From the NCBI RefSeq assembly GCF_000189635.1, contig NW_002476495.1:186001-250000 (forward strand): a DNA stretch of 64,000 bases, given 5' to 3'. This document shows positions 1-46,139 of the stretch, piece after piece. Origin of the DNA: Tetrahymena thermophila SB210 (taxonomy: Eukaryota; Ciliophora; Oligohymenophorea; Hymenostomatida; Tetrahymenidae). Made by a program: the position numbers and the translations under genes. How positions within the stretch are numbered: position 1 is the first letter of the stretch; each line of letters starts with the position of its first letter. The notes below the pieces were generated by a model. That model had not been told where the DNA came from, made no database searches, and was given only the letters and a program-made list of their open reading frames with translations.

Positions 1-265
1 AATTGAACCACTATATCATTTATAGCAATCTCTATCTATTTATCTAATAATTAATTATCAAACACAATATCCAAGTAGAATTTTTGATTCTTTTCTCTGC
101 ACTCAAAAAAAAATTATTATTGTGCAAAAGTAGCAGCAAATTTTTTTTTTTAATGAAAAATGAATTTTAATTAAAAAGTATTTAAAATTTTTATTACAAA
201 ATAATTTCTATAAAAGAATACAAAATTAAATTAATTTTTTTTCTAATATTTAAATATTGTTCAAA

Positions 266-2348
266 TCAACTATCACTGTCGTAATCAGTGCTCTTTTCTT
301 TACCAGTTATAAACCCAAATATATCTTTTGTCTTTTCTTCTTCATCAAGATCATTAAGCTAAAAGAATTTATCCCAAAAATGATTGGTGACTTAATAGCC
401 ATATTCCCTATCTTTAAAGTGATGCTTAGCGTGTTTATTCCTTAAATATTAAGAATAACTAAGAGTTAATTTCTTTTTATTATGGAGAGCATAGTGAACT
501 ACCTCATAATAAAGATATCCTAAACAAATACCACTTAGAATTAAATATAAAGTATTTCCATATATTAACAAACCTAGTGAATATCTTATCAAAAATGCTA
601 CAAAAATGCTGAAGAATGGCTAAATTGTTGTTCTGGCTCTATATAAATAAAATAAATTAATATTTAACAAATAATTTTGAATAAATATTAAATATTTTTA
701 TTTTATGAATTTTAATTTCATTTTATCATAAAATATTCCAATATCAAATTTTAAAAATCAGATTTAAAAATTATTTAAAAGCAAATATTAATTTTTGAAT
801 ATTAAAGTTAAATTTTAGAAAATATAATTTTTATTTTAATGCTTTTAAATAAATTTTAACATATCTAAAAAATCAATTAATTTTATTTAAAGCTTGATTT
901 TTGATAAGATATTTGAAATATTTAAATAATTAAATATAAAATTTATTAAAAATTGTGTTTATAGAAATAAAATAATCAATTTATTTTTTTAAATATTGCA
1001 TTTGATTTAAATTAGATGCAGAAAATCTCAAAATAATTTCATTAAGTAAATCAATCTTCCAAGTAAATTTAAAGAAGAAAGGCTAAGATTATTTATACTC
1101 AAACCTGAAATAAATTAAAAGAAATAAATAAATAAATTACTCATCTAATGGAAAGACATAGTGAATTCCAAAAATTAAGAAATGGAATGTTTTTCCTAGG
1201 ACATAAGGCTGCAAAATGATTCTTAGAAAAACATATTCCATAATCCAGAAAATGATAATTCCACAAAATAAGAAACCAAAAAGAAAAAGCAAGGGTCTGT
1301 TATCAGCTTTATAATGCCTGTCAAACATTCCCCTAGAATAGTTATAATCTAAATTGAGACCACAATAGAACATGTAAATGAATATCATGGTATACAAAAG
1401 AACTACTATTCCTATATTATTATTCAACAGAGAGTCAATTGAGTCATTATCAAAAAGTTTTGTTCCAACTACTCTCTTGCAAGGGTTTTTTAACAAATCT
1501 TCATACGTCTTTTTATCTTTTATTGCTCTAATTTGACTAACCAAACCCTTATTTAAATTCAAAGTCACATTTTTATATTCCAATTTATAGTCGTGTGTGA
1601 GGTGAGGATATTATTTCTTTTAATTTTAAAGTATTTTTTATTAACATATTGTCTTTAAATATATTTTAATTATAAATTAAAAAATTTCATTTTAATTTAT
1701 CTATTTATTGTTTACTAGCTTTGAGTTGTTTTTTAAACTTAATTGCTTGTTCAAATTATTTTACCTATGATATAGGTTTAATAATAATTTGAATTTAAAC
1801 AACTTACTTTTTTTGAAATGGTAAAATTAAACTAAATCATATGTATTAAACAAAGTGTATTTAACTAATTAATACCTTTATCTTTCCTTATTTAAGCTGT
1901 TCTCTTTCCTCCTCTTGCTCATCTCCAATTACACCGTAAATGTACTTTTGCATAAGATTTTATGCATATTAAGAATGTTTATGTCTTGAGGAGTTAAAAA
2001 ATATGTCAGATATATCAAGTCCCTAGTAATCTTCGATAGCATCTTGGCCACCTTTTTTATTTATATTTGATTTATAATTTTAAAATATTGTCTAATTTAT
2101 TTCTTTTATCTGCATTCTAATATTAATATATTATAATGATGAATTTATTTCTTACCTGGATGCTCATGCTGAAATTATGATAAATCGTATACTTTATTTT
2201 GAAAAATTACGAGCATTTTGTCATTTTCTTCTGCAAATTCTTCAACCTTTTGAGGATTTAGGAACCTTTTTAATTTTCTATTTTAAATCAATCCATTGCT
2301 GCTTTCGTTGCTTGTGCTTTTTTCTAAAGGCTTGATTTTGTTTGACAT
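266..2348 (-). CDS. Cytochrome b5 / fatty acid 2-hydroxylase family protein (Scs7/FA2H-like), 4 exons
   Basis: Exons read on the minus strand are 2348-2156, 2051-1876, 1616-1141 and 638-266. They total 1,218 nt (405 aa plus TGA) with matching phases and GT...AG introns. Residues ~40-115 form a cytochrome b5 domain with the haem motif HPGGQD and a second haem-side HSQYA. A linker leads to YKNVTLNLNKGLV, which matches the start of the hydroxylase part (compare FTVDLNKPLV in plant enzymes). Membrane segments and histidine motifs follow: HFLIFGIHYVFPLDE, then after intron 3 YYEVVHYALH and NKHAKHHFKDREYGY. The family hydroxylates the alpha carbon of sphingolipid fatty acids in the ER, taking electrons from b5. 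Oddity: the usual first box, EYxxHRxxxH, reads EYVFLRIILQ, and HFxxHGxHH reads HFLIFGIHY, so several di-iron ligands are missing. The family call is strong; catalytic activity is doubtful. The start is the only upstream ATG that keeps the b5 frame. Confidence 0.9.
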
Positions 2349-8510: not shown

Positions 8511-8519
8511 TTTTTCTAT

Positions 8520-9005
8520 ATATTATATTTTTAAGTATATGTTTTAAATACAAATATTAAGATTAAATAATGAATTTTTAAATAACTCTTCTGTGATTGA
8601 TATCTATCTATCTCTTCATAAAACAAAATTAATAAATTAATATCTGATAATTAATTATTATATTTTATTAGTTCATTTTATCCATTTATTATTAATTAAT
8701 TAAATTTCATAAATCGCTATTCAATATTTTTGAAAAAAAAAAATAAATGAAATAGATTAAATATTACAACAGATTAGAAGAAGTAATTATTAATTTTTTT
8801 ATTAATATCCTTTAAATTTATATAAATTAATAAAAAAAGTTTTTAAGCTCTTCACTTTTATCTCATGAGGTTCTCCATATTGAACTGAAGTGTTTTTTAT
8901 TTATTAATATTATTTTTATTATTATTAATATTTTTTATATATTTAACTTTCAATTTATTTAAATAAGTAATTTTTGTTTTTGAAACTATCATCATTATTT
9001 ATTAA
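8520..9005 (+). repeat. Upstream block shared by the two LRR genes (copy 1)
   Basis: The block matches 22,620-23,160, the sequence before the second LRR gene. It includes the conserved AAGCTCTTCACTT and TCTCATGAGGTTCTCCATAT. It was probably duplicated together with the LRR gene and may contain its promoter. Confidence 0.65.
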
Positions 9006-9010
9006 TTTTT

Positions 9011-12000
9011 ATGAAAACAAATTTGACACTTTTGCTTGGGTAAAAACAGCTTATTTATTTAGGATTATGATATTTTTAATTATAAAAACTAATTAAAAAG
9101 AATAAAGCTCTTTTTTCTTTTCTTTCTTTGTTAATTTAACTCATCATTTTATTTTCAACTTTTTTTCTTTTATTATTAATTAATTAATCTTATTATTTCA
9201 TATATTTTCTTCATTTTTTCCTTCTAATTAAATATTTAATGTTATATTTTTTCTTCAATTTTTAAAAAGTTCCAATTAAATTGGTGACGAAGGTGCATCA
9301 GGCTTAGGTTCTGGTTTATCAAATTGCATTAATCTCTCAAATTTGGAACTTTGGCTTGAGTAAAAACAGTTTATTTATTTTGGATTGTGATATTTTTAAT
9401 TATAAAAACTAATTAAAAAAACAATACATTTTTGTTTTTTCTTTTTATTGTGCTTGCTTTTTTTGTTCTTTCTTTGTTAGTTTAGCTCATCATTTTATAT
9501 TCAACTTTTGCTTTTATTATTAATTAATTTTATTATTTCATATTTTTTCTTCATTTTTTCCTTCTAATTAACTATTTGATGATATTTTTTTCTTCAATAA
9601 TTAAAAAGTTCCAATTAAATTGGTGCTATGGGTATTTCAAACTTAGGTTCTGGTTTATCAAATTGCATTAATCTCTCTAATTTGGAACTTATACTTGTGT
9701 AAAAATAGTTTATTTGTTTTGGATTGTGATATTTTGAATTATAAAAACTAATTAAAAACAATAAAGCTCTTTTTTCTTTTTCTTATTATTGTGTTTGCTA
9801 TTTTTTTGTTCTTTCGTTGTTAATTTAACTCATCAATTTATTTTCAACTTTTGCTTTCATTATTAATTAATCTTGTTATTTCATATTTTTTCCTTCTAAT
9901 TAACTATTTAATGATATATTTTTTCTTCAATATTTAAAAAGTTCCAATTAAATTGGTGCTATGGGTGTTTCAGGCTTAGGTTCTGGTTTATCAAATTGCA
10001 TTAATCTCTCTAATTTGACCCTTTTGCTTGGGTAAAAACAGCTTATTTATTTTGAATTATAATATTTTTAATTATAAAAACTAATTAAAAACAATAAAGC
10101 TCTTTTTTATTTTTCTTATTATTTTTTTGTTCTTTCGTTGTTAATTTAACTCATCATTTTATTTTCAACTTTTGCTTTTATTATTAATTAATTAATCTTG
10201 TTATTTCATATTTTTTCTTAATTTTTTAAGCTATTTAATGATATATTTTTTCTTCAATATTTAAAAAGAAGTAATTAAATTGGTGACGAAGGTGCATCAG
10301 CCTTAGGTTCTGGTTTATCAAATTGCATTAATCTCTCAAAATTGACACTTTCACTTTGGTAAAAACAGTTTATTTGTTTTGGATTGTGATATTTTTAATT
10401 ATAAGAACTAATTAAAAACAATAAAGCTCTTTTTTCTTTTTCTTATTATTGTGTTTGCTTTTTTTTTTGTTCTTTCGTTGTTAATTTAACTCACCATTTT
10501 ATTTTCAACTTTTGCTTTCATAATTAATTAATCTTGTTATTTCATATTTTTTCTTCATTTTTTCCTTCTAATTAGCTATTTAATGATATATTTTTTCTTC
10601 AATATTTAAAAAGTGAGAATTAAATTGGTGATGAAGGTGCATCAGCCTTAGGTTCTGATTTATCAAATTGCATTAATCTCTCAAAATTGTCACTTATCCT
10701 TGGGTAAAAACATTTTATTTATTTTGGATTATGAATTATAAAAACTAATTTAAAATTATAAAGCTCTTATTTCTTTTTCTTTTTATTGTGCTTGCTTTTT
10801 TTTTTATTCTTTCTTTGTAAATTTAACTTATCATTTTATTTTCAACTTTTACTTTTATTATTAATTAATCTTATTTTTTCAAATTTTTTCTTCATTTTTT
10901 CTTTCAAATTAACTATTTAATGATATATTTTTTCTTCAATATTTAAAAAGTGGAAATTAAATCCGTGATAAAGGTGTATCAGGCTTAGTTTTTGGTTTAT
11001 CAAATTGCATTAATCTCTCAAATTTTTTACTTTGGCTTCCGTAAAACAGTTTATTTGTTTTGGATCGTGATAGTTATAATTATTAAAACTATTAAAAAAC
11101 AATAAAGCTCTTTTTTCTTTTTCTTTTTATTGTGCTTGCTTTTTTTTTGTCCTTTTTTTGTTAATTTAACTCATCATTTTATTTTTAACTTTTGCTTTTA
11201 TTATTAATTAATTAATCTTGTTATTTCATATATTTTCTTCATTTTTTCTTTCTAATTAACTATTTAGTGATATATTTTTTCTTCAATATTTAAAAAGTTC
11301 AAGCTAAATTGGTGATGAAGGTGCATCAGGCTTAGGTTCTGGTTTATCAAATTGCATTAATCTCTCAAATTTGACACTTAACCTTGGGTAAAAACAGTTT
11401 ATTTGTTTTGGATTGTGATATTTTTAATTATATAAACTAATTTAAAACAATAAAGCTCTTATTTCTTTTTCTTTTTATTGTGCTTGCTTTTTTTTGTTCT
11501 TTCTGTCTTAATTTAACTTATCATTTTATTTTTAACTTTTGCTTTTATTATTAATTAATCTTATTTTTTCTTCATTTTTTCTTTCGAATTAACTATTTAA
11601 TGATATATTTTTTCTTCAATATTTAAAAAGTTTCAATTAAATCCGTGATAAAGGTGTATCAGGCTTAGGTTTTGGTTTATCAAATTGCATTAATCTCTAA
11701 AATTTTTCACTTTTGCTTCCGTAAAAACAGTTATTTGTTTTGGATTGTGATATTTTTAATTATAAAAACTAATTAAAAACAATAAAGCTCTTTTTTCTTT
11801 TTATTGTGGTTGCTTTTTTTTGTTCTTTATTTGTTAATTTAACTCTTCATTTTATTTTCAACTTTTGGCTTTATTATTAATTAATTAATCTTATTATTTC
11901 ATATTTTTTCTACATTTTTTCCTTCTAATTAACGATTTAATGATATATTTTTTTTTCAATATTTAAAAAGAAGTAATTAAATTGGTGATGAAGGTGTATC

Positions 12001-12994
12001 AGGCTTAGGTTTTGGTTTATCAAAGTGCATTAATCTTTCAAATTTGACACTTAACTTAAAGTAAAAACAGTTTATTTGTTTTGGATTGTGATAGTTATAA
12101 TTATAAAAACTAATTAAAAACAATAAAGCTCTTATTTCTTTTTTTTTGTGCTAGCTTTTTTTGTCCTCTCTTTGTTAATTTAACTCATCATTTTATTTTC
12201 AACTTTTGCTTTTATTATTAATTAATTAATGTTGTTATTTCATATTTTTTCTTCATTTTTTCCTTCTAATTAACTATTTAATGATATATTTTTTCTTCAT
12301 TATTTAAAAAGTTTCAATTAAATTGGTGATAAAGGTGCATCAGGCTTATGTTCTATTTTATCAAATTGCATTAATCTCTCATATTTGACACTTAAGCTTG
12401 GGTAAAAATAGTTAATTTGTTTTAGATTGTGATATTTTTAATTATAAAAACTAATTAAAAACAATAAAACTCTTATTTCTTTTTCTTTTGTTTGCTTTTT
12501 TTTTGTTCTTTCTTTGTTAATTTAACACATCATTTTATTTTCAACTTTTAATTTTATTATCAATTAATTAATCTTATTTATTATTTCATATTTTTTCTTG
12601 ATTTTTTCCATCTAATTAGCTATTTAATGATATATTTTTTCTTCAATATTTAAAAAGTTGCAATGATATTGGTTATGAAGGTGCATCAAGCTTAGGTTCT
12701 GCTTTAGCTAATTGCAGTAATCTCTCAAATTTGACACTTTAACTTTTGTAAAAACAGTTTACTTGTTTTGGATTGTGATATATTTAGTTATAAAAACTAA
12801 TTTAAAACAATAAAGCACTTTTTTCTTTTTCTTTTTATTGTGCTTGCTTTTTTTTTGTTCTTTCTTTGTATTAAAAATTTACACCAATTTATTATAAAAT
12901 TTTTAGCAAAATGAAGGAATCATAAAAATTCAATTTAATAAGCAAGATTCTTAAATCAAAAAGATTAGTTGTCTTAAAAAAAGAATTCATGTGA
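9011..12994 (+). CDS. Leucine-rich repeat protein A, 13 exons
   Basis: Exon 1 is 9011-9039 (MKTNLTLLLG). Then come eleven exons of exactly 90 nt: 9270-9359, 9609-9698, 9942-10031, 10269-10358, 10614-10703, 10951-11040, 11298-11387, 11631-11720, 11971-12060, 12312-12401 and 12658-12747. The last exon is 12907-12994. All introns are phase 2, start GTAAAA and mostly end TTTAAAAAG. The spliced frame is 1,107 nt (368 aa) and ends in TGA. Each 90-nt exon gives one ~30-residue ribonuclease-inhibitor-type repeat such as SNQIGDEGASGLGSGLSNC followed by INLSNLTL. The C-terminus SKILKSKRLVVLKKEFM is typical of this protein type. No signal peptide or kinase domain is seen. Such LRR solenoids usually bind proteins; the partner is unknown. 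The start is the least certain point, since exon 1 is a partial repeat and its ATG context is T-rich. Confidence 0.8.
9040..12800 (+). repeat. Tandem ~330-bp exon-plus-intron unit of LRR gene A
   Basis: Each unit is a 90-nt LRR exon plus a ~220-270-nt intron. The introns are themselves repeated: GTAAAAACAGTTTATTTG at the start, TTATAAAAACTAATTAAAAA next, then AATAAAGCTCTTTTTTC, a T-rich tract and CTTCAATATTTAAAAAG at the end. Introns as conserved as exons point to recent amplification of whole genomic units. Confidence 0.85.
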
Positions 12995-13795
12995 TAAACC
13001 AGTGGAATAAATATTAAATGTTTGAATAATTGAATATTATATGTTTTTTTTATTATATAATATTTTGAAAAAGTGTTTTTAACATAAAATATAATAAGAT
13101 AAATAGATTTTATGGTCAATCCCTGTTATTTCTCCACCTAAGACCTAAAATGATTAAATATCCACCATATACCTAAACATTTTAAATATCCACCTTAAAA
13201 AACTAGTGGATATCTATCAAGTTAAGAACCATTTTAATTGAATGAATAGTAAAGAGTTTAATTTTTAATTGGCTTATCAAAGAATAATTATGATATTTTT
13301 AAAATAAATTCAAATATGATAGAAATTAAATTGAGCTTATTAAAAAAAAAAATCAGTCTCATTTGAATTTAAATAATATTTATTTTTTAAAATCATAAAT
13401 TTAAAACATAATCAGATTTTATTACAAAATTTATAATTCAATTCCAAAAAAAAATAGTCATGGGTTTTGTTGAAAGTCTAATTTTATTAAAAAATAAACA
13501 GCTTATCTTGTATGCTGCATAAAAAAATAGATAAAACATAGATTAAATATTTAGCTTTTTAAAGAAAGATTATTCATTTAAATAATGACTAAAATTGTGA
13601 TTAATTGATTTATTGATTTATTTATATTTAGTTTACAGAAATTGTATTAAAGATATTAATTAGGTATCTATCTATCTTATTTTAAGTAAAAGTATATTTA
13701 CATTTTTGTAAGTATTATTAATTATATTAGTTTAATTAGTTATTTATTTATCTATCTATCTAGTAGTTGTTCATTTTAAGGCGTTTTTGCATATT
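12995..13795. other. Intergenic between convergent LRR A and TPR genes
   Basis: No exon is supported. Around 13,153-13,220 the word ATATCCACC occurs three times and pairs with GTGGATAT, giving a small imperfect hairpin. Confidence 0.55.
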
Positions 13796-14644
13796 TCATT
13801 AATTTTCATTCTCTTATCCTAGCAATTATTTACTAATTTCTAAATATTCTTTTGCTTTTTATTCATTATCTAACTTGCTATACAAAAATGCTAAGTTATA
13901 GTAAATTTAGCCATTTTCTGGGTCTAAATTCTTAGCCTTTTCTAATGGAATAAGGGCTTCTTAGTATTTCTACTAATTAGCATATGCTTATGATAAATTG
14001 AAGTAAGCATTTGAGAAAGAATTGTCTATTTCAATAGCTTTTTCAAAATTTTAAATGGCTTAATTATAATCTTTCTTTTGCAAATAAATGCTTCCTAAAT
14101 TGTTAAATGACTCTTTAAGATTCTTGTCTAGTAAAATTGACTTTTGGTAAAGCATTATGGCTTTATCAATGTCTTCATTGTTTTATTTTTATTCTGATTA
14201 ACCTTCATAGGCTATTGCTAAATTGTAATAAAGCAGAGGGTCATCTGGAGATGATTTCAATGCTAAGAGAAAACATTTGATTGCACTCTCAAAATTACTC
14301 ATATTCAAGAAAGATTATCCAATATATTTATATGTGGCTGTTTCTTTTGGCTTGTTTTCTAAATATTTTTAAAAACAGTCGATTGCCTGCTTATGATTCT
14401 AAAGCTTTTAGTAGGCATGACCCATATAAAAGTATGGCACTATGTTCTTTTCATCTAATTTGATAGATTTACTATAGTAGAAGATGGCTTCTTCAAATTA
14501 ATTTTGTTTGTGCAGTTGCTAAGCTTGCTAAAACAGATTTTTAGATTCCTAAGGGCTTTTTTGAATTTCCTTCTTTTGTTGCTACTTATTTTTTAAGCTA
14601 AAAAAGAAAGTTTGAACATTTTAAAGTTTAAAAAACCTACTCAT
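13796..14644 (-). CDS. TPR-repeat protein
   Basis: A single exon of 283 codons (282 aa) runs from ATG (14642-14644) to TGA (13796-13798). After a Gln/Lys-rich N-terminus (MSRFFKLQNVQTFFF...), residues ~34-275 form about six to seven tetratricopeptide repeats. Examples are AQQLHKQNQFEEAIFYYSKS, NNLGSIYLQKKDYNQAIQNF and YYNLAFLYSKLDNEQKAKEY. They show the usual pattern of small residues at positions 8 and 20 and NLG/NLA/NLS turns. TPR arrays are protein-protein scaffolds, and the Asn-rich repeats resemble superkernel-type or ciliary TPR proteins, but nothing points to one pathway. There is no signal peptide or membrane span, so it is likely cytosolic. It runs convergently to the LRR gene and divergently from the first antigen gene. 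Confidence 0.88.
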
Positions 14645-16667
14645 TTTTGTATTTTTACTCAATAACAAATGTAATTATTATTAATAAAATTTGCCTTATT
14701 TTGGTGATATTTTCTAGAAATATTTGTTAAATCTACTTTTATCAAAATTAATTTCACAAAATAAAATTATGAAAAAATAATTTTCTTTTTTTATGTTTTA
14801 ACTTAAAAAGATAATAATATAATAGATTGTAATTTAGTCATACCACCTATCTATTTATTGTGTTTAATATTCCAAAAGTTTTTTAATCCATAAAAATGGA
14901 TGGATGGATTGTTACGAGTATAAAAAAGTTATAATTCTCCTTATCTATTATATGATAATTTTATAAAATTATTAAAAAAAAATATTTTTTAAAAAACCTA
15001 GCTATATTCTCTTGTTTGCTTAAATTTATTTTATTAAAGATAATGCAATAAATTAACTTTAAAAACATTTAGATACTATTCTTATTTCAAGTATTAGATA
15101 GAAAATCTATTACAATCAGTTTGGTTTTCAAAAATATTTTGTGAGAAATATTTTTTTTAAACCTGTAAGTACTCTTTCAAAATTAATACTAATATTTAAA
15201 GGAAGAATTAAGATCAATTTTTTGTTTGTAAATAAAATTAAAATGACCTAAAATTTATTTTCTTTCTTTTTTATTAACTTTTTTTCTTTTACTTTTTAAA
15301 TATTTAACTAATCATTTATATTAACTTTGTTTAATAATTTCAAATGTATGCATGAAAGTATGCAAAAAAATAAAAACTCCTTAATCCTAAAAGATAATAT
15401 TAAAGATATATAAATTCAACATGAGTTTATTTATCCCTGATTAATTTTAAGTTAAATTATGTTTAAAGTATTAAATTCTTGAATTTATTTAAATGAATTA
15501 ATTTGAGCTTTTCTTTGAAGTATTTTTTTGCAATAACAAAGAGCAAATTTAAAATAAAATAAAAAGTAAGCCTTTATTTACTTTTGAGTTTAGAAAAATA
15601 ATAATTTTTAATATTATTTTTTCTAATTTAAAAGAGAGAAAACAAATTTTAAAAAATTTCATCATAATATCATCCAGTATTTATTATATTCAACTCTTAT
15701 AAAGAGAAATATTATTAATGTTTTATCAATAATGATCATATATGTTATAATCAGCTCTTCTAATGACAAATTTTATTAATATTTCATCAGAACTAGAACT
15801 AGAAATTAAATTAAGTGAGTAGGAATGAAATTAATTAATTAATTAATTATTCCTTTTATCTCCCAAATTTTCTCTTCATTAAAAATTTAATTTTGTTTAT
15901 TGGTGTTTTTACTAATTTTCCCTTCAATATTTTGAAAGTCGTAATAAATATATATGATTGTTATATTGATATGTAATTAGATGAATAATTTTTTTGTAAT
16001 ATTATCATGCATAGGATATGAAAGAAAAAATATACAAGATAATTAATCTGCAAAACGTTAGAAGACAACTTATGTTAATATTTTACCAAAAATTATGATA
16101 ATAATTATCCCAATAAATAATTAAAAGACAGACATATGTTTCTAATATTTTATCATAAAATTAATCAATTTTTTATTTGCAAATCTAATTTAAAAAACTG
16201 ACCATTTTCTCCTAAAATTATGGTAGATTTTCTACTTTTTAGTAGATAATAAAGTAGAATAAAGCATTTTATTTTTATTTATTTAGTACTTTTAATAATT
16301 AACTCAAAAGTAGTATCAATTAATTTTATATTTTACTTTGTGCTTATTTAGAAATAGATTAAAATTTTTAGGTTTTCAATTTTGTGTAAAAATTCTCTTT
16401 AAAAAAAAGTAGTTAAATGATTTTTATGAAATTAGAGTAGAATTTCATATTTTTAAATAATTATTTTTTTGTTTAGGATCCTAAATAAAATTATATTTAA
16501 CAAATTTAGGTAATGTTTCAAATAAGCTAATTTTAATAATTTTTGTTTTTTTATCTTGAATGAATTAATAAATTTAATTAATTATCTTACCCGATCGATC
16601 ATTTATTTAAAATTCTAGATAATTAATATAAAGAGGGAACATTGATTTGATACAATAATGAATGGAT
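14645..16667. other. Intergenic, divergent; far-upstream region of antigen gene 1
   Basis: No exon is supported. From ~15,000 the sequence is related to the regions upstream of the other four antigen genes. It includes degenerate copies of the AGACAAATTTT / TTAATATTTCATCAG motif near 15,640, 15,705, 15,760, 16,060 and 16,125. Confidence 0.6.
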
Positions 16668-16779
16668 AATATTCAAATTATCTCAGCTCATCTGTATTAT
16701 TTAAAAATAAATGAGCAAAATTCTAATTATAAAGATTTAATAAAAATAAAAATAAATATAAACTAATATAGCAAAAATA
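16668..16779 (+). promoter_or_regulatory. Conserved proximal upstream block of antigen gene 1
   Basis: This is about 110 bp conserved before all five antigen genes. It has TTCAAATTATC, then a CAGCTCA-type core with TGTATTATTT, GAGCAAAATT and TATAAAGATTTAATAAAA, and an A-rich leader up to the ATG. Promoter plus 5' UTR is the simplest reading; function is inferred. Confidence 0.55.
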
Positions 16780-17556
16780 ATGAAAGCAATTTCTTTAATA
16801 TTTATATCATTAGCTGTAATTGCTACAGTAAACGCTACTTGTGCTGATGCAAATGCTACTGCTGGTTAAGGAGGTACTTGTTTCTGTAATGCTGGTTATT
16901 ATGGTACTTCTACTGATGTTTCTTCAGGTGGATCATGCAAAAAATGCCCAACTGGAGCTACTTCTCCTGCTTCCACTACCTCAGGGACTCTTAAGAGCTC
17001 TTGCACTTGCATCGATACTAACGCTATTCCCGATATTACTTACACTCTCTGCTTATGTAATGATAACTACTACGGTACACCTACCAGTTCTGGTGCTAGT
17101 GGATGTACTCCATGCCCAACTGGATCAAAATCCTTTGCTGGTTCAACTACTGTTACTTAATGTCTTTGTGGTGACTTTAATTCTGTCATCAATGATGCCA
17201 AAACTGCCTGCTAATGTAAGGCTAACTACTATGGTACACCTACTTCTTCTGGTCCCAGTGGATGTACTAAATGCCCTACTGATACAACCTCTACCATAGG
17301 TACAACTGCTCTATCTTCTTGCGCTTGCCCAGACACTAACGCTTCCCTCAACACTGCTAATCCTCCTGTTTGCTAATGTAAAGCTAACTTCTATGGTTCT
17401 CCTACTAGTTCTGGTGCTAGTGGATGTACTGCATGCCCTAATGGATAAATTGCTCCAGCTGGTTCTTCTACTAATGTTTGCAAAGTTGCTTCAACATCTT
17501 CCACATATATTTTACCCATAGTTTCTTTACTTTTCTCTTTAGTTATGCTTATTTGA
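16780..17556 (+). CDS. Immobilization-antigen-type GPI-anchored surface protein, copy 1 (4 repeats)
   Basis: The frame has 259 codons (258 aa). MKAISLIFISLAVIATVNA is a signal peptide. Four cysteine-rich units follow, built from CxC, the core NFYGTPTSSGASGCT or a variant, and CPxG. The tail SSTYILPIVSLLFSLVMLI is hydrophobic and ends at the stop, as GPI-attachment signals do. In-frame TAA codes Gln in CQCKANYYG and at GQGG near the N-terminus. The design matches ciliate i-antigens (Tetrahymena Ser proteins, Ichthyophthirius i-antigens), which coat cell and cilia and bind immobilizing antibodies. Assignment to a named locus is not possible. Compared with copy 2 it has an extra Ala-Thr pair before the first Cys. 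The start is fixed by the signal peptide and by alignment of all five copies. Confidence 0.87.
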
Positions 17557-19897
17557 AGTTAATTTTTCAAAGAAAATATCTTTAAAATATCAATTATTAA
17601 AAAATTAATAAATTTTTGTCTGTTAGTCAATAAATAATAATTTTATGTTCTAATGATTTGAAAATGGATTAATAAGTTTTATCAAAAAAAAATAAAATAT
17701 TAGTTCTTTTTTATTAATTTTTTTAATACTCAACTTTCAAATTATATAATTAGATAATAATCTTATTGTAAATAATTAAACAAATAAATAAAACTTGCCT
17801 ATTAAACATGAAAATTTATCATGAATAGAATTTTTGTTAAATATGAAAATATTCTGATTTGAGTTTTTTAATATCACTTTAAACATGTTAAGAAAAAAAT
17901 TAATAAATTTATTTGGTTTATATTGATTTCAGTAGTCAATAATATTTTGAATAAAAGAGTAAGTTTAAAAAGTCTGGCAAGGCAATCTGATTAAATCAAA
18001 AAAATAATGATATTTAAAATATATACTACAGTTTTATAGATATTGAGAATGTGGTATCTATCACCCAATAAAAATTATTTTAACGTATTTTTGAAAATTT
18101 ATATGACTAATTTATTATTTTTACTCTTGGAACATTTAAGAATTTATAGTTGATATATTTTTTTTGTTTAAAAAAATGGTTAAATTAAAAAAGAAATTTA
18201 TTTTGAAGATACCTTATAATTCTGTAAAATGGGGAAAATAGTTAATGTGTTATTTTATTGATTTTATCACATATAATATAAATCAATTAAATATTATAAA
18301 ATAATTCTATTATAGAAAAATATTCATTTAAATATAGTTGAATAGGAAACTTACTTACTTACTTCCTTTTCAATAGAAAAAAATCAAAAACTAACTAATT
18401 AAATTACGAAAGATTACAAAAGGATAGTAAATAAATTAACTGAATGAATAGTAAAGATAAAGACATGTTAATCATGATTAAAAAGAGATATATTTTATTA
18501 GAATATATGGAAAAGTAAATATTTATCATATATTTATTATAAATATCTAACGAAATATTTTTTTCAAAAGTAAAAATGATAAAATTAAATTTTAAAATTG
18601 ATCAGATTTATTTAAGCAAATAAAGATAATTTTGAGCTTAGAGGTAGCAAAATAAAAATTTTTATCTTTTATTTTTGTACTTTGAAATTTACATAGTTTT
18701 TAGATCTCATTTTTTGAGTATTTTAAGGATACCAATATATTTTTACTTTATACATAAATACTATGTTAATATAAAATTTATTTTATTTAGTTAAATTTTG
18801 TAAAATTATTTTGAAGTAAAAAAAAAGATATCATTTTAAAAATGATAAATAAATGAATGAATTTTTTTGTAAATAAAATTAAATACAATTTAACCAATTT
18901 ACAAATATTTTATCAAAATTACAAAAAATTTATTTATTTAAAAATATTATTTTTTTCTAATTGAGAGAAAGCAAAATTTTAAATATTTCATCATACAATT
19001 CTTAAGCATTTATTATATTCAATTCTTATAAAGGTAAATTTTATTAATATTTCATCAGGACTAGAAATTAAATTAAGTTAGAAGTAAAGAAATCAATTAT
19101 TACTCTTAACTCCCAAGTTTTATCTTCTTTAAAAATTAAATTTTTTTTTTAATTTTCTTTATTAGCTAGCGCTTTTATTAGTTTTTCCCTTCAATACATT
19201 GTAAGTGGAGATAAATATATATGGTTGCAAATTGATACATAATTTTATCAATATTTTTTTGTAATATTATCATGCATAGAATATGTAAAAAAAAAATATA
19301 CAAGACTAATTAATCTTGCACACCAATTTATGTTAATATTTTAACTTAAATTATGATAGCTATTATTCCATTAAATAATTTAAAACATACATTTTTTAAT
19401 GTTTTATCTTAAAATTAATCAATGTTTTTTTTGCAAATCTAATTTGAAAAACCAATCATTTTCTCCTAAAATTTGGACAGATTTTCTACATTTTAGCTAT
19501 TAATAAAGTAGAATAAAGCATTTTATTTTTAATTATTTCGTACTTTTAATGATTAACTCAAAAATAGTATCAATTAATTTAATTTTCTATTTCACTTTGT
19601 GTTTAGAAACATATTTAGAATTTTTGGGTTTTCTATTTTCAAAAATTATCTTAAAAATATAAGTAGTTAAATGATTTTCATAAAAAGTGAGTATAATTTC
19701 ATATTTTTAAGTAATTTTATTTGCGTTTAGGAACTTACATGATACTATCTTTAACTAATTTAGGTAAATGTTTCAAATAAGCTAATTTTAACAATATTTG
19801 TTTTGTATCTTAAATTAATTAATTAATAAATTAACCTACCTGATTGATAATTTATCTTAAATTCAAGATTATAATATGAAGATAAATTAATTAATGA
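17557..19897. other. Intergenic between antigen genes 1 and 2
   Basis: The first ~150 bp is the 3' flank shared by all antigen genes (TTTTTGTCTGTT, ATTTTATGTTCTAATG). A ~500-bp dispersed repeat lies at 18,340-18,860 (see its own entry). From ~18,880 the sequence is homologous to the upstream regions of the other antigen genes. No exon is supported. Confidence 0.6.
18340..18860 (+). repeat. Dispersed ~500-bp repeat (copy 1)
   Basis: This matches 26,420-26,960 in the same orientation. Shared words include TATTTTTTTCAAAAGTAAAA or a close variant, GATAAAATTAAATTTTAAAAT and GTAGCAAAATAAAAAT. No coding capacity is recognised. Confidence 0.6.
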
Positions 19898-20019
19898 ATA
19901 ATCTTCAAATTATCATAGCTCAGCTGGATTATTTTAAAATGAGCAAAATTTTAATCATAAAAATTTAATAAAATAAAAAATACAAATTAATATAAATTAA
20001 TCTTGCAAAAAAAAAAAAA
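19898..20019 (+). promoter_or_regulatory. Conserved proximal upstream block of antigen gene 2
   Basis: Same block as before copy 1: CTTCAAATTATCATAGCTCAG, GAGCAAAATTTTAATCAT and an A-rich leader ending in a run of 14 A before the ATG. Regulatory role inferred from conservation. Confidence 0.55.
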
Positions 20020-20793
20020 ATGAAAGCAATTTCTTTGATTCTTATTTCATTAGCTGTGATTGCTACAGTAAACGCTTGTACTGATGCTCACGCTACTGCT
20101 GGTAATGGAGGTACTTGTTTCTGTAATGCTGGTTATTATGGTACTTCTACTGATGTTAATGGTGCAGGATCTTGCCAAAAATGCCCAGATGGAACTACTT
20201 CTGCAGCTGCCACTACCTCAGGAACTCTTGTCAGCTCTTGCACTTGCATCGATGTTAATGCTATTCCCAATGGTGCCAACACTGGCTGCGCATGTAAGGA
20301 TAACTTCTATGGTAAACCTACCAGTTCTGGTGCTAGTGGATGTACTCCATGCCCAACAGGATCAATTTCTACTTTTGGTTCATATTCTGTTGATTATTGC
20401 TTTTGCGTAGACTCAAATTCTGTTAAAAATAGTTCCAACACTGCATGCTAATGTAAGGATAACTTCTATGGTACACCTAACCCAACTAAGGGTGGTGCTA
20501 CTGGATGTACTGCATGCCCATCTGGAACAACCTCTACCGCTGGTACAACTGATATGTCTTCTTGCGCTTGCCCAGACACTAACGCTTCCCTTAACTCTGC
20601 TAATCCTCCTGTATGCTAATGTAAAGCTAATTTCTATGGTAGCCCTACTACTTCTGGTGCTAGTGGATGTACTGCATGCCCTAATGGATAAACTGCTCCT
20701 GCTGGTTCTGCTAGTAATGTTTGCAAAGCTTCATCTTCCACATACATTTTACCCATAGTTTCTTTGCTTTTCTCTTTACTTATGCTTATTTGA
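20020..20793 (+). CDS. Immobilization-antigen-type GPI-anchored surface protein, copy 2 (4 repeats)
   Basis: The frame has 258 codons (257 aa) and ends at TGA. It has the signal peptide MKAISLILISLAVIATVNA, four cysteine units and the GPI-type tail SSTYILPIVSLLFSLLMLI. TAA is read as Gln in CQCKDNFYG, CQCKANFYG and at NGQTAP; under the standard code the protein would stop after 143 residues. Its third unit has an Asn-Pro-Thr-Lys insert (TPNPTKGGATGC) that resembles the longer units of copies 3 and 5. It lies 2.5 kb downstream of copy 1 in the same orientation, as a tandem pair. Outer-surface coat protein is the expected role. Confidence 0.87.
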
Positions 20794-23476: not shown

Positions 23477-25864
23477 TATCGGTTTTAATGGTGCAATAGA
23501 TGTAGCAGGCTTATGTCATGGTTTAGCAAATTGCACTAATCTCTCAAATTTGACACTTCACCTTGGGTAAAAATAGTTTATTTGTTTTGGATTGTGATAT
23601 TTTTAGCTATAAAAATGAATTTAAAACAATATAGCTAGCTCTTTTAACTTGTTTATTAGCACTTTATTTTATTTTCTTTTTCATTTTTATTGTTTTTTCT
23701 ACTTTATTATATATCTTCATTTTTTTATTTTCTACATTTGCTTTTATTATTCGTAAAATCTCTTTAACTCGCAACCAGAAAATTCAAAACATTTTCGATT
23801 TATCGAGGTTTTCATTTTCGAAAATTTTAAAGCTCTTACCTACAACTCATTCATTTTTTTTAACGAGGTTTTACGGTATTTATGTATTCATTTCTTATAA
23901 TTTCATATGTTTTCTTCATTTTTTTCTTCTAAATAAATAATTAATCTTATATTTTTTCTTCAATATTTAAATAGTGATAATATGTTTGATGATTAACATG
24001 CATTAAATTTAGTTTCTAGCTTAACAATTTGCACTAACCTCTCAAATTTGACAATTTATTTTGAGTAAAAACAGTTTTTTTGATTAAGATTGTGATATTT
24101 TTAGCTATAAAAATGAATTAAAAACAATAGAGAGAGCTCTTTTAACTTGTTTTTTATCTTTTTATTTAATTTACTTTTCTTTTTCTTTTTTATTATAATT
24201 GTGTTGTTTTTTCTATCATCTTTCTTCATTTTTATATTTTCAACATTTGCTTTTATTTATTTGTTTGTTTGGTTATTTATTTATTTATTTATTCATTCAT
24301 TCATTTCTTATAATTTATATTTTTTATTCATGTCTTATTATTTAATATTTTTCTTCATTTTTCCTTTCTAAATAACTAATTAATATTATATTTTCTTCAA
24401 TATTTAAAAAGTAAAAATTATATTGGTGCAACAGGTGCATCAGGCTTAGGTTCTGGTTTAGTAAATTGCACTAATCTCTCAAATTTGACACTTAGTCTTA
24501 AGTAAAAACAGTTTATTTGTTTAGGATTGTGATCTTTTTAGCTATAAAAATGAATTTAAAAGAAAAAGCTCTTTTAACTTGTTTATTAGCTTTTTATTTG
24601 ATTAAATTTTCTTTTTCTTTTTTATTGTAATTGTGTTGTTTTTTCTATTATCTTTCTTCATTTTTTTATTTTCAACATTTGCTTTTATTTATTTATTTAT
24701 TTAATATTATTTCATATTTTTTATTTTTTTTTCATTCTAAATAACAAATTGATTTTATATTTTTCTTCATATTTAAAAAGTAAAAATTATATTGGTGATT
24801 TAGGTGCGTCAGGCTTAGGTTTTCGTTTAGGAAATTGCACTAATCTCTCAAATTTGACACTTAATCTTAAGTAAAAACAGTTTATTTGCTTAGGATTGTG
24901 ATATTTTTAGCTATAAAAATGAATTTAAAATAAAATAACTCTTTTAACCTGTTTATAGGTTTTAATTTGATTTACTTTTCTTTTTCTTTTTTATTGTAAT
25001 TATGTTGCTTTTTCTATTATCTTTCTTCATTTTTTATTTTCAACGTTTGCTTTTATTATTTATTAATTCATTTCTTATTAATTCATATTTTTTATTTATT
25101 TTTTCCTTCTAAATAATTAACTAATTTTATATTTTTTCTTCAATATTTAAAAAGTTCAAATGGAATTGGCGATTAAGGTGCATCAGGCTTAGGCTCTGGT
25201 TTAGCAAATTGCACTCATCTCTCAAATTTAACACTTTAACTTAGGTAAAAACAGTTTATTTGTTTAGGATTGTTATATTTTTAGCTATAAAAATGAATTT
25301 AAAATAAAATAACTCTTTTAACCTGTTTATAGGTTTTAATTTGATTTACTTTTCTTTTTCATTTTTATGGTTCCTGTGTTGTTTTTTACTGCTATCTTTC
25401 TTCATTTTTTATTTTCAACATTTACTATTATTTATTTATTTTTTTATTTATTTATTCATTTCTTATTGTTTCATATTTTTTCTTCGTTTTTTTCTTCTAA
25501 ATAACTATTTAATATTATATTTTTTCTTCAATATTTAAAAAGTGGCAATAAAATTGGTGCAAAAGGTGCATCAGGCTTAGGTTCTGCTTTAGCAAATTGT
25601 ACTAATCTCTCAAATTTGACACTTTATCTTAGGTAAAAACAGTTTATTTGTCTTAGATTGTGATATTTTTACTTTAAAAAATGAGTTTATAACAAAAAAA
25701 CTCTTATGCCAGATGTTTTTTTTTATTTAATTTTATTTATTAATTTTTTTTAATTTAATAAAAATAAAAGTTCCAAATTTATTGATAAATCTTAATAATT
25801 GAAAGTAAAAAGCAAGTGTCTTAAATCAAAAAAATTAATTGTCATTAAAATAAGTTTCTATTGA
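23477..25864 (+). CDS. Leucine-rich repeat protein B; start not found, possible 5'-eroded paralogue
   Basis: Six 90-nt LRR exons (23477-23566, 23975-24064, 24412-24501, 24781-24870, 25155-25244, 25543-25632) and a last exon (25771-25864) all join in phase 2 and end in TGA. The last exon gives KCLKSKKLIVIKISFY, homologous to the end of protein A. The repeats follow the ANCTNLSNLTL pattern. The position equal to exon 1 of gene A (~23,160-23,190) has lost both ATG and the GTAAAA donor: the donor site reads TGATAAAA. Exon 2 has diverged (DNMFDDQHALNLVSS). Either another upstream exon supplies the start or the gene is inactive. Intact splice sites and frames in seven exons suggest recent or continuing constraint. 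Confidence 0.6.
23752..23875. mobile_element. 124-bp MITE-like insertion in an LRR B intron
   Basis: The ends are imperfect 16-bp inverted repeats: CGTAAAATCTCTTTAA at the left and TTAACGAGGTTTTACG at the right, 13 of 16 matching when reverse-complemented. TATT lies on both sides, with one extra G on the right. Other LRR introns run straight through this point (GCTTTTATTATTTATT). The interior has a second hairpin around ATTTTCG/CGAAAAT. Confidence 0.6.
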
Positions 25865-31953: not shown

Positions 31954-32394
31954 TCATTCACTGTTGCAGTTTCCGGGGACGAAGTAAGATGATTTTCCAG
32001 AAATGCATGCATGGCATTTGTTAGGATAAGTTTCACCGCAAGGAGCCTTGATGCAATTGACGGTCTTTTCATAGATACCACAAACGGGGATGTATTCCTT
32101 GGTACACATCTTGTTATTGACAGCATCGGGGTGGCAGAAGACGGCATTTTCAGGATAGGAGTTGCAAGCACCTTCAGCGAAGAAAAGAGTTTCTGAGCTC
32201 TTGCAAGCATGACATCTATTAGGGAAAGTAACCTTGTTGGTTTTGTTGGAGTTTTCTTTAGAAACTGTGATACCACAAACAGGCTTGTAAATCATGCTGC
32301 AGAATTAGTTGGTTCTTTCTAAGTCACTGCACTTGGTATTAACAGCAGTGCAAACAGCTAAGATGGCAAAGAGAGCAATAGTGAGTTTGTACAT
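31954..32394 (-). CDS. Secreted two-domain Kazal-type serine protease inhibitor
   Basis: The frame has 147 codons (146 aa). The signal peptide is MYKLTIALFAILAVCTAV. Two Kazal domains follow. The first, residues ~30-77, contains CSMIYKPVCG and FPNRCHACKSS. The second, ~88-144, contains CTKEYIPVCG and TYPNKCHACISG and ends PGNCNSE. Both keep the PVCG and (T/F)(Y/F)PNxC signatures and six paired cysteines; domain 2 has an extra Cys pair in a longer loop (VNCIKAPCGE). Kazal domains block serine proteases by presenting a loop after the second Cys. A secreted free-living ciliate inhibitor could limit its own or foreign proteases; the target is unknown. Codons are markedly richer in C-ending forms than neighbouring genes, as in highly expressed ciliate genes. 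TAA appears once as Gln (TNQFCS). Confidence 0.9.
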
Positions 32395-34015
32395 TTTTTA
32401 ATTTGAGCAAAATTCTTGATTTAATTTTTTTTTTGAAATAATTTATTATATTTTTACGAATTAAAGTTAGAATATAAATTGAGATAAACCAAAAGAAAAT
32501 AGCTCTTGTTTGCTTGCGTATTGCCAAATCAATCTAATTTAAAACCTATCATATTTGATCAAAAAATTTAGCTGCATATTTTTATTTTGCCTATCTAAAT
32601 TTTTACTGTTTTAATGTTTTTGCTGAAATTATTAACCACATTTTAATTGACATCTCTCTCAGTAATAATTTTGATTGCTTTATAGCTCTATTAATTTACA
32701 TATAATTACCATAATTTCAATCAAAAGTAAACTAACAAAAGTGTTCATTTAGAAATTGAGAGCTGGGGAAAACGATTATTACCTCTAATTCACATTATAA
32801 AATAGCTTGATTACATTACATTTCCTTGTACATTAAAAGGCTTAACTAACCTTACATTTCTTGTAATTATGCTTTTAGCTGTAATCCAAAATATTGCTTA
32901 CTAACAAAAAATAAACTCTCCTTTATCATGCATTTTATAATTTTTTTAGCATTGATTTTTAAAATATTAAGGCTAAAATTATTTTTTGTTTTGATTAATA
33001 AAGTAGAAATCTTTTGCAAAATTTTTTTAAAATTTGTGGATAGACGGATTGATTAATTTACTGAAAGAATGGTGATTGATTTTAGTATAAATTTTGTTTT
33101 TATTTAAAATGTATGTAAAAAGCAATATTAATAATTTGTTAATTTAAATAATTATTCTTCATTTTACATTAACCCATTTGTATTAATTAATTTGATTTCA
33201 TTTTTGAATAAAAAATAAACATTTTATGATTGAAGAAACTTTCCTCTTGTTTTCAATTCAATTTTTACTTCATAACAAAAATTATTTTTTTTTGACCTCA
33301 ATTACTTTTTTAAAGAAATCAACTTGATTACTTTTTAAAAAAATATGTAACCTACCTATTAAGATCAATTTGAGTAAAACTAAAGTCATTTGTTAATATC
33401 TAATTATTATATAAATCTCTTAATTATTTTTTTAATTTACTTATCCATTACCAGCTCAAGTGTAAGCTAATATTTTTTGGTTAATTCTAACAAAAAAGCA
33501 TTTAAATTATTTATAAACCATTACTTATTTTACTTAATTATTAAAAATTTTTTGATCAATCCAGAAAATTGTCATCGATCTCCTTCTAATATACTAAATG
33601 AGAAAAATAAATTTAAATGATGTTATTTATACTATACTTTTAGATATTTTTTTACATACTATATTCTTTTACAATTAATTAGTCTCTCAATCTTTAATTT
33701 ATATCAATTAAATTTATTATTTTTAGTATTTGTTTTAGTTAAATAAAGTGTATATAAAAGAAATAACTATTTTATATGTACTCTACTTGTTCAGATATTG
33801 CAGTAATGAAATGATAACAATGATAATATTTTAAAAAATAAATAATTGTCTAAAATTATCTTTTTCATTCATATTTTATTTAAATTAAAATGTAAAAGAA
33901 ATGAAATGTTGGTATTATTATTAATAAAATTATCATATTTTTTTCAATCAATTTACATATAACAAGAATTAAATTTGCTAAGCTCCCTCTAAAAAAATGA
34001 ATTTAGCATTTTTAA
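32395..34015. other. Intergenic, upstream of Kazal gene
   Basis: AT-rich. I see no exon, RNA gene or long repeat. The first few hundred bases are probably the Kazal promoter. Confidence 0.5.
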
Positions 34016-41300: not shown

Positions 41301-41949
41301 CTTATTCTTACAAATCCTCAGAAGACAATTTATGTTAATATTTTACCAGAATCTTTCCAATAAATTCTTTAAAAGACATATTTTTTTAATATTTTATCAG
41401 AAAATTAATCAATATTTTATTTGCAAATTTTATTTAAAATACCTACCATATTCTCCTAAAAATTTAGAAAATTTTCAACTTATTAGCTTGTAATAAAGTT
41501 GAATAAAGCTTTTCATGTTTAGTTTTCTCCTACTTTTAATGATTAATTCAAAAATAGTATTTATAAAAAATAGCATCAATTAATTTTCTATATCATTTTG
41601 TGTTAAGAAATGGAAAGATTTAGAACTTTTAGAATTTTGATTTTTTTTAAATGTTATTTTAAAATCGAAATGACAAAATAATTTTCATGAAAAAAAAATA
41701 AATTAAAGGTATGAATGTAGAATTTCATATTTTTAAATTTGTTTTTTTTCATTTAGAACCTACATTATACTATACTTGATAAAAGTAGATGTTTCAAATA
41801 AGCTAATCTAAAAAATTTTGTTTTTCTCATGAATTAATTAATAAATTTACCTACCCGATTGATCATTTATTTTTAATTCAAGTCAATTAATATTAAGAGG
41901 GAAAATTATTAAACGAATGAATGAATAATCTTCAAATTATTAAGCAATA
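38396..41949. other. Intergenic; extended upstream region of antigen gene 3
   Basis: No exon is supported. Stretches at 38,640-38,830, 39,130-39,330 and 39,890-40,060 are homologous to 43,820-44,010, 44,100-44,310 and 44,330-44,420, so the amplified antigen unit reaches several kilobases upstream. The motif array is listed separately. Confidence 0.55.
40898..41400 (+). repeat. Array of AGACAAATTTT...TTAATATTTCATCAG motif upstream of antigen gene 3
   Basis: Copies lie near 40,898, 40,963, 41,025, 41,321 and 41,371; the first three are 62-65 bp apart. Each is AAGACAAATTTT (or AAGACATATTTT), one or two bases, then TTAATATT(T/A)CATCAG or TTTATCAG. The same series occurs before the other antigen genes. 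It may be a regulatory array or a decayed repeat. Confidence 0.65.
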
Positions 41950-42077
41950 GAATGAATAATCTTCAAATTATTCAGCTCAGCTGTATTAATTTTAAAATAG
42001 AGCAAAATTTCAATTATAAAGATTTAATAAAAATAAAAAATACAAATAAATATAAACTAATTTTGCAAAAAAAAAAA
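41950..42077 (+). promoter_or_regulatory. Conserved proximal upstream block of antigen gene 3
   Basis: Contains AATCTTCAAATTATTCAGCTC, GAGCAAAATTTCAATTATAA and an A-rich leader. A 27-bp stretch (GAATGAATAATCTTCAAATTAT) is tandemly doubled here from 41,918, unlike at other copies. Confidence 0.55.
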
Positions 42078-43028
42078 ATGAAAGCAACTTCTTTGATACT
42101 TATTTCATTAGCTGTAATTGCTACAGTAAACGCTTGTACTGATACTAACGCTACTGCTGGTGCTGGAGGTACTTGTTTCTGTAATGCTGGTTATTATGGT
42201 ACTTCTACCGATGTCACTCCTTCTGGATCTTGCACAAAATGCCCAACTGGAACTAATTCTGCTGCTGCCACTGCCTCAGGTACTCTTGTCAGCTCATGCA
42301 CTTGTAATGACACTAATGCCTCCCTTAAGGGTGATAACTCTGGTTGCTAATGTAAGGCTAACTTCTACGGTACACCTAACGCCGTCTCTGGTGGTGCTAC
42401 TGGATGTTCTGCATGCCCAACTGGTACTACTTCCCCTGCTGGTACAGCTGCTGTTACTTCATGCGCTTGCAATGATACTAATGCCTCCCTTAAGGGTGAT
42501 AACTCTGGTTGCTAATGTAAGGCTAACTTCTACGGTACACCTAACGCCGTCTCTGGTGGTGCTACTGGATGTACTGCATGCCCAACTGGTTCTGCCGCTG
42601 CTGCTGGTTCAACTGCTGTTACTTCATGCGCTTGTAACGATACTAACTCTTCCCTCAAGGCTGATAACAGTGCTTGTGTATGTAAGGCTAACTTCTACGG
42701 TACACCTAACGCCGTCGCTGGTGGTGCTACTGGATGTACTGCATGCCCAACTGGAACAACTTCTACTGCCGGTACAACTGTTATTGGTTCATGCGCTTGT
42801 CCAGACACTAACGCTTCTCTTAACACTGCTACTCCTCCTGTTTGCTAATGTAATGCTAATTTCTATGGTACCCCTACCTCTTCTGGTGCCAGTGGATGTA
42901 CTGCATGTCCTTCTGGATAAACTGCCCCAGCTGGTTCTGCTACTAATGTTTGCAAAGCTGCTTCAACATCTTCCACTTACATTTTACCCATAGTTTCTTT
43001 GCTTTTCTCTTTAGTTATGCTTATTTGA
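42078..43028 (+). CDS. Immobilization-antigen-type GPI-anchored surface protein, copy 3 (5 repeats)
   Basis: The frame has 317 codons (316 aa). The signal peptide is MKATSLILISLAVIATVNA. Five cysteine units follow; three of them carry the longer core NFYGTPNAVSGGATGC or NAVAGGATGC and begin CNDTNASLKGDN. The tail SSTYILPIVSLLFSLVMLI is a GPI-type signal. Gln is TAA in each CQCKANFYG. An upstream in-frame ATG exists at 41,952, but the signal peptide and alignment with the other copies fix the start at 42,078. It is almost identical to copy 5, 6.5 kb away. Repeat units within the gene are nearly identical at DNA level, which favours unequal exchange. Confidence 0.87.
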
Positions 43029-45577: not shown

Positions 45578-45692
45578 GGGTAATCTTCAAATTATCCTAG
45601 CTCAGCTGTATTATTCTTTTAATAGAGCAAAATTTCAATTATAAAGATTTAATAAAATTTCAAATAAATAGAAATTAATATTGTAAAAAAAA
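45578..45692 (+). promoter_or_regulatory. Conserved proximal upstream block of antigen gene 4
   Basis: Contains AATCTTCAAATTATCCTAGC, TCAGCTGTATTATT, GAGCAAAATTTCAATTATAA and an A-rich leader. Same layout as the other four copies. Confidence 0.55.
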
Positions 45693-46139
45693 ATGAAAGT
45701 AACTTCTTTGATACTCATTTCATTAGCTGTAATTGCTACAGTAAACGCTTGTACTGATACTAATGCCACTGCTGGTGCCGGAGGTACTTGTTTCTGTAAT
45801 GCTGGTTATTATGGTACTTCTACTGATGTAACTGCTGCTGGATCTTGCCAAAAATGCCCAACTGGAACTAATTCTGCTGCTGCCACTGCCTCAGGAACTC
45901 TTGTCACCTCATGCAATTGTCTCGATACTAACGCTTCCCTCAACTCTGCTACTCCTCCTGTTTGCTAATGTAAAGCTAACTTCTATGGTACCCCTACTAA
46001 TTCTGGTGCTAGTGGATGTACTGCATGCCCTTCTGGATAAACTGCTCCAGCTGGTTCTACTACTAATGTTTGCAAATCTGCTTCTACATACATTTTACCT
46101 ATAGTTTCTTTGATTTTCTCTTTATTTATGCTTATTTGA
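45693..46139 (+). CDS. Immobilization-antigen-type surface protein, copy 4 (short, 2 repeats)
   Basis: The frame has 149 codons (148 aa). The signal peptide is MKVTSLILISLAVIATVNA, followed by only two cysteine units and the GPI-type tail STYILPIVSLIFSLFMLI. It joins the first unit (CTDTNATAGAGGTCFC) directly to the last unit (CQCKANFYGTPTNSGASGC), so the middle units found in other copies are absent. The frame is intact, and 5' and 3' flanks are those of the family, so it looks like a functional minimal member made by loss (or before gain) of internal repeats. Its Gln codon TAA after PPVC would truncate it under the standard code. Confidence 0.85.

Follow-up and report, generated by a model that had tools for sequence, protein, structure and literature searches.

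Thousands of leucine-rich repeat (LRR) genes of Tetrahymena contain arrays of exactly 90-bp exons separated by phase-2 introns (Xiong et al. 2019, PLoS Biol, PMC6564038). In the main text of that study, the origin of the arrays is put down to the shuffling of exons through unequal crossing-over, to which retrotransposition may have contributed; RNA-seq support for the gene class is given, and sensing of bacteria is suggested. Here we describe a gene of this type, located at positions 9011–12994 of the forward strand of a 64,000-nucleotide stretch of Tetrahymena thermophila SB210 DNA (contig NW_002476495.1, positions 186,001 to 250,000; hereafter the window), together with related units in the 101-Mb, 445-contig genome assembly. 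The architecture of the gene is in print, and the finding of the array is therefore not itself new. The addition of the present analysis to the published family is the pattern of hypervariable codons: three codons around the intron, at positions expected to face a ligand, differ between units much more than the introns and the conserved codons do.

Comparison with described LRR families

The gene shares with the group II and III LRR genes of Tetrahymena the 90-bp exons in arrays of at least three, the phase-2 introns and the single LRR per exon. The published genes are also alike in having DNA-level repeat units that include the intron and vary in number (PMC6564038). The introns of group III peak at about 257 bp in T. 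thermophila, and introns 1–11 of the gene measure 230–257 nt. The leucines reported as centered at nucleotides 36, 48, 66, 75, 81 and 87 correspond to codons 12, 16, 22, 25, 27 and 29 here, which encode leucine in 11, 11, 11, 9 (the other two being phenylalanine), 11 and 11 of the eleven exons. Judged from these sequence features, the gene is a member of the published family. An earlier note on this DNA had proposed that the symmetrical exons and their introns form modular units that can be added or removed without loss of the reading frame, which is borne out here and was published for the family of 90-bp-exon genes (Xiong et al. 2019).

The terms "hypervariab", "diversifying" and "positive selection" do not occur in the main text of PMC6564038; the amino-acid logos of that study omit the junction codon, and its logo figures may show other variable positions. 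No report of the hypervariable-codon pattern in Tetrahymena LRR genes was found among the titles of open-licence papers, and neither "LRR" nor "leucine-rich" occurs in the main text of a study of 22 T. thermophila strains (PMC10868616).

The LRR exons of the brown-algal LRR-ROCO genes are the nearest parallel in another lineage. These are 72-bp phase-2 exons in which sites 14, 16, 18 and 19, located on the concave face, are under positive selection (Teng et al. 2024, PMC11378527). In both systems, each LRR corresponds to a symmetrical phase-2 exon, shuffling of exons is invoked, and a receptor repertoire has been proposed. The algal genes differ in the 72-bp exons, the 23-residue LRR, the ROC-COR domain, the alternative splicing and the distant lineage (PMC11378527). 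In our own alignment anchored on the asparagine of the repeat, the spacing of algal sites 16, 18 and 19 equals that of codon 28, the junction codon and codon 1 of the Tetrahymena unit, and site 14 falls on codon 26. The gene in the window does not belong to the LRR-ROCO family, as its exons are 90 nt long and no ROC or COR family is among the three Pfam matches (E up to 1) of the spliced protein.

Repeats in which a few contact codons vary while the rest of the unit stays alike are also found in the zinc fingers of PRDM9, in TAL effectors and in lamprey VLR proteins. Introns are not known to interrupt the repeats of PRDM9 or of TAL effectors, and VLRs are assembled somatically.

Hypervariable codons of the repeat unit

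The analysis of variation is based on 275 ninety-nucleotide LRR exons from 46 contigs, gathered by genome coordinate from 98 loci and the window. An earlier set of units, from which identical sequences had been removed, might hide true duplicates, and the coordinate-based repetition gave a similar result. Variation is greatest on the two sides of the intron, in codon 28, in the junction codon that the intron interrupts, and in codon 1; these three codons constitute the X positions of the LxLXLXXN motif. The amino-acid entropy among 134 units of type A is 3.70 bits at codon 1, 3.42 at the junction and 2.86 at codon 28, followed by 2.16 at codon 7. The same three positions lead among 69 units of type B (3.64, 3.61 and 2.89 bits), with codon 3 next at 2.76. 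Nucleotide diversity (π) in type A reaches 0.69 in codon 1, 0.54 in codon 28, 0.50 in codon 7 and 0.37 in codon 6, and 0.74, 0.61 and 0.42 at nucleotides 89, 90 and 1 of the junction codon, as opposed to 0.01–0.09 in the six leucine codons. The corresponding values in type B are 0.68 in codon 1, 0.47 in codon 28, 0.44 in codon 3 and 0.42 in codon 7, and 0.71, 0.63 and 0.42 at nucleotides 89, 90 and 1.

Aspartate, asparagine, tyrosine, serine, glycine, arginine and glutamate are common at the three hypervariable positions. In LRR proteins in general, the X residues of LxLXLXXN face the concave, ligand-binding side, and the three hypervariable residues are expected to be located there. The 275 exons carry 250 hypervariable signatures, and 20 exons from 12 contigs that are the same in the other 81 nucleotides have 18 of them. 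All eleven exons of the gene at 9011–12994 have distinct signatures. The 63 closest pairs of units are not independent of one another; in them, codons 1 and 28 contain 221 nonsynonymous and 11 synonymous differences, and the other codons 307 and 51.

Divergence of hypervariable bases and introns

A unit was treated as interior if the nearest contig end was 8 kb or more away; there are 59 such units on 16 contigs, of which 54 on 12 contigs were used for comparisons between contigs. In these 54 units, the hypervariable bases differ at a frequency of 0.629 (interval 0.574–0.676), the introns at 0.072 (0.063–0.084) and the third positions of conserved codons at 0.089 (0.047–0.137). The interval for the hypervariable bases touches neither of the other two. 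Differences in the conserved codons of type A units track the divergence of the introns, being 0.007, 0.048 and 0.083 at intron divergences of less than 1%, 4–6% and 10–15%, respectively. The nine bases of the three hypervariable codons differ at 0.55–0.61 in every class of intron divergence that contains two or more pairs; the difference in codons 3, 6 and 7 goes from 0.38 to 0.60 across the classes. In a saturation fit to the interior units, the hypervariable bases change at about 37 times the rate of the introns (bootstrap 29–515). Absence of constraint cannot be the source of this pattern, because unconstrained sites should resemble the introns. Strong diversifying selection can produce it, and the sequences suggest diversifying selection on the ligand face.

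Several observations count against this reading. The hypervariable difference between interior units falls at small divergence: ordered by rising divergence, it is 0.22 (n = 1), 0.47 (n = 4), 0.53 (n = 13) and 0.56 (n = 53) before it levels off at about 0.6. The three closest pairs of type B share most of their hypervariable bases (0.19–0.22 different). Units within 8 kb of contig ends make up 57 of the 63 closest pairs, and the near-perfect intron identity at contig ends may be in part an assembly artefact. It is suspect because the inspected contigs stop without telomere repeats, several of them inside arrays. A second tier of positions is close by π, since codon 7 in type A and codons 3 and 7 in type B approach codon 28, and among the closest pairs, codons 3, 6 and 7 differ in 59, 66 and 74 of 126 comparisons, which is about half. 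The published median Ka/Ks of about 0.4 in young LRR genes was read as relaxed purifying selection in the main text of PMC6564038.

The conclusions about divergence rest on the comparison of whole introns and on the interior units. A total lack of memory at the hypervariable codons is not relied on, as it depends mostly on units at contig ends. A local test with 107 nt of flanking sequence was also set aside as weak, since zero mismatches may represent the tail of a star-like expansion.

Origin of the diversity

It can be asked whether the hypervariable codons were diversified by a dedicated targeted process, such as templated or error-prone patching, and not by ordinary mutation and selection. 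In three pairs of units whose members come from different contigs and whose introns match at all 251 nt without an indel, three to five of the nine flanking hypervariable bases differ, which favors such a process, as does the little memory of ancestry at these sites of type A in any divergence class. In contrast, one pair from the same contig with identical introns differs at only one of the nine bases, the close type B pairs retain memory, and most near-identical pairs are located at contig ends. The rate in the interior pairs, about 37 times that of the introns, is finite and attainable by strong diversifying selection. Synonymous codon choice is mixed within codons 1 and 28 (0.45 and 0.50, compared with 0.00–0.20 elsewhere), and the share of NAC among NAY codons is 65/88 at codon 1, 82/192 at codon 28 and 14/166 at codon 6; the background codon usage behind this comparison was drawn from both true and false frames and is only roughly indicative. 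The mixed synonymous codons and the C-rich third base speak weakly for targeting. The whole genome contains a single match to reverse transcriptase (RVT_1), and no candidate enzyme was identified. We regard a targeted process as unlikely. Adenine-specific change of the kind attributed to diversity-generating retroelements finds no support, as several bases (all four at most) occur per hypervariable site and the adenines elsewhere hardly vary.

We consider it probable that the gene belongs to the Tetrahymena family of 90-bp-exon LRR genes, and that its modular units with diversified codons serve a recognition repertoire; function, splicing, expression, protein structure, ligand binding and selection, in place of a dedicated mutator, as the cause of the diversity are what we infer from the sequence. 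One 90-nt exon and an intron of about 250 nt would encode one 30-residue LRR. Crossing-over within the similar introns would add, drop or swap units, and the reading frame would be kept because every exon is symmetrical (2-2). The scaffold positions would be held constant, while codon 28, the junction codon and codon 1 would be driven apart, and codons 3, 6 and 7 less strongly so. The family is predicted to act as a repertoire of recognition proteins. The earlier note had seen in the array a modular system for making repertoires of binding proteins. The most variable residues occupy LRR positions that should point toward the ligand, which agrees with the binding part of this proposal, whereas mutation of the ordinary kind, together with unequal crossing-over and selection, may be enough for the making of the repertoire.

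The pattern of variation turns the LRR family into a testable recognition repertoire and names the residues to exchange. It also makes it possible to ask in a unicellular organism whether receptors are diversified by more than mutation and selection. We consider it unlikely that this germline repertoire owes its diversity to a targeted process acting on the three ligand-facing codons around each intron and sparing most of the unit including the intron. If it were so, the targeted diversification would be a protist counterpart of the dedicated receptor-diversification systems.

Coding status of the family

Because the stop codon TGA is present in none of the 275 exons, whereas random relocation of their own substitutions yields 31.3 exons with TGA (19–50, 200 runs), the reading frame of the LRR family is demonstrably under purifying selection. 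The array is tandem, AT-rich and highly repetitive, as would be expected of non-coding satellite DNA with a mere likeness to exons. Such an origin is very hard to reconcile with the missing stops, with the LRR match of the spliced protein (E = 5.9e-28) and with the lengths of the candidate exons, and we give it almost no credence. The main text of Xiong et al. (2019, PMC6564038) also provides RNA-seq support for the gene class. When lengths of 75–105 nt were permitted, a length of precisely 90 nt was found in 185 of 197 candidate exons; chance is thereby ruled out as the source of the exact length, which is therefore real.

Structure of the gene at 9011–12994

Translated by the ciliate code (NCBI table 6), the gene on the forward strand comprises 13 exons, one of 29 nt, eleven of 90 nt and one of 88 nt, and encodes 368 amino acids. 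The spliced coding sequence of 1107 nt is in frame and free of internal TGA codons, with the ATG at 9011 and a TGA at 12992–12994. Upstream of the gene, an in-frame TGA is located at 8981. Each of the eleven repeat exons contains one or two in-frame TAA or TAG codons, as is usual with the ciliate code. All twelve introns are GT-AG introns of phase 2, so that phase 2 precedes every internal exon. According to the gene model, the first exon (9011–9039) encodes MKTNLTLLL plus two nucleotides and is followed by intron 1 (9040–9269). Boundary motifs and the gene model place the eleven 90-nt LRR exons at 9270–9359, 9609–9698, 9942–10031, 10269–10358, 10614–10703, 10951–11040, 11298–11387, 11631–11720, 11971–12060, 12312–12401 and 12658–12747, each bounded by AAAAG and GTAAAA (11/11), with a unit spacing of 327–347 bp. 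Intron 12 (12748–12906, 159 nt) precedes the last exon (12907–12994), which encodes the peptide ...SQKFNLISKILKSKRLVVL... and the TGA stop and is common to the paralogs compared. The eleven consecutive one-repeat exons are thus real, and the coordinates and count given for them earlier are right. Splicing and expression of the gene are predicted from its sequence.

The spliced protein matches Pfam family PF13516 (LRR_6) with 95.1 bits, above the cut-off of 23.4. Ten matches were found among PDB sequences, the best being 9y6s_8O, "Leucine-rich repeat protein" (E = 3.9e-12); another is 5irm_A (E = 2.5e-10), which we take to be NOD2. In the same ten units of the array, the introns are 90.9% identical over ungapped columns (84.9% counting gaps) and the exons 82.3%. 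The introns are hence more conserved than the exons, and not just as conserved, as the earlier note had it. Its claim that the units were duplicated recently does not hold for most of the array, since the identity of exons between units is only 73–92%.

The 5′ end weakens the case for an intact gene. The 5′ flank (8519–9021, forward strand) is repeated in the genome, where a search gave at least 40 long matches, including the window, and six short weak pieces; the other long copies are 84–87% identical. Several copies precede arrays of the same orientation, at a distance of about 0.6–1.3 kb on the 5′ side. The alignment of the flank has 23 rows besides the window, two of which represent the same place, giving 22 copies; the early-ending BLAST hits L061 and L062 were excluded. 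The ATG at 9011 is present in none of the 22 other distinct copies, most of which have ATT. In the window, the flank runs directly into the tail of a repeat exon, so that the first exon consists of the ATG joined to the 3′ tail of such an exon. Because the ATG is private to this copy and the flank joins a repeat-exon tail, the copy may be 5′-truncated with a new start codon, or broken. A deletion could have fused the flank to the repeat exon and left a non-functional fragment with a fortuitous ATG; the join lies inside the exon at a short shared CAAATTT-like stretch, by our reading. The eleven exons of this gene alone would be expected to hold 1.71 stops, and the absence of stops in them is not significant (P = 0.153). 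A dead fragment is nevertheless at odds with the intact splice dinucleotides (24/24), exon lengths (11/11) and shared last exon, and with the eleven different hypervariable signatures. We find a non-functional fragment possible but less likely than not. A conserved N-terminal exon of the paralogs (MPIQFIKGEMQYIL...) is not claimed, as several of the 23 rows are frame-shifted or carry a TGA.

Related arrays in the genome

The genome contains at least 254 matches to the unit at 11298–11630; therefore, the array is not a product of chance. A unit of the second type, at 24781–25154, has at least 317. The second unit belongs to another 90-nt-exon LRR array in the window (23477–25632, forward strand), of which six exons were found, with a more diverged unit type and longer introns. 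Many unit matches lie near contig ends of the genome (G000; e.g. loci L004, L006, L011 and L028), and counts of units are incomplete because the assembly breaks within arrays.

The conserved 3′ end with its downstream flank (12869–13100, forward strand) gave at least 40 matches in the genome search, including the window, the other copies being 79–83% identical. The acceptor AG of the last exon, before an exon of the ...SQKFKVISKCLKSKRLVVF... type, is retained in six of the seven paralog 3′ ends inspected, out of 39 other matches. The seventh, L035 (G000:C216), has AAC where the others have AG and one base, and is possibly a decaying copy.

A short G+C-rich stretch at L050, with L068 (G000:C359, just upstream of 12841), looks by eye like a reversed transfer RNA (tRNA); ARAGORN called no tRNA in L050. 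The stretch takes the place of the first bases of a repeat exon, the first in a paralogous array, and is joined directly to what follows.

Other features of the window and the assembly

The G+C content of the window is 17–32% in 2-kb steps. The LRR gene is immediately followed, on the reverse strand, by an open reading frame (ORF) with TPR repeats (13799–15115; TPR_1, E = 2e-36). Five related ORFs that are richer in G+C are located on the forward strand at 16651–17553, 19675–20790, 41925–43025, 45354–46136 and 48454–49527; their likeness was seen in translations of the opposite strand. Pfam searches gave Ephrin_rec_like below the cut-off in three of the five and nothing in the other two. The ORF at 41925–43025 is cysteine-rich, with CNDTNASLKGDNSGCQCKANFYGTP-type repeats and hydrophobic ends, and presumably resembles a surface immobilization antigen of Tetrahymena. 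A protease inhibitor domain of the Kazal type is encoded by an ORF on the reverse strand (31957–32658; E = 8.3e-6, 26.2 bits, cut-off 21). Repeats of CCCCAA, which we take to be the Tetrahymena telomere repeat, cluster at positions 5–358 (forward strand) and from 465612 (reverse strand) of contig C4, as at two chromosome ends.

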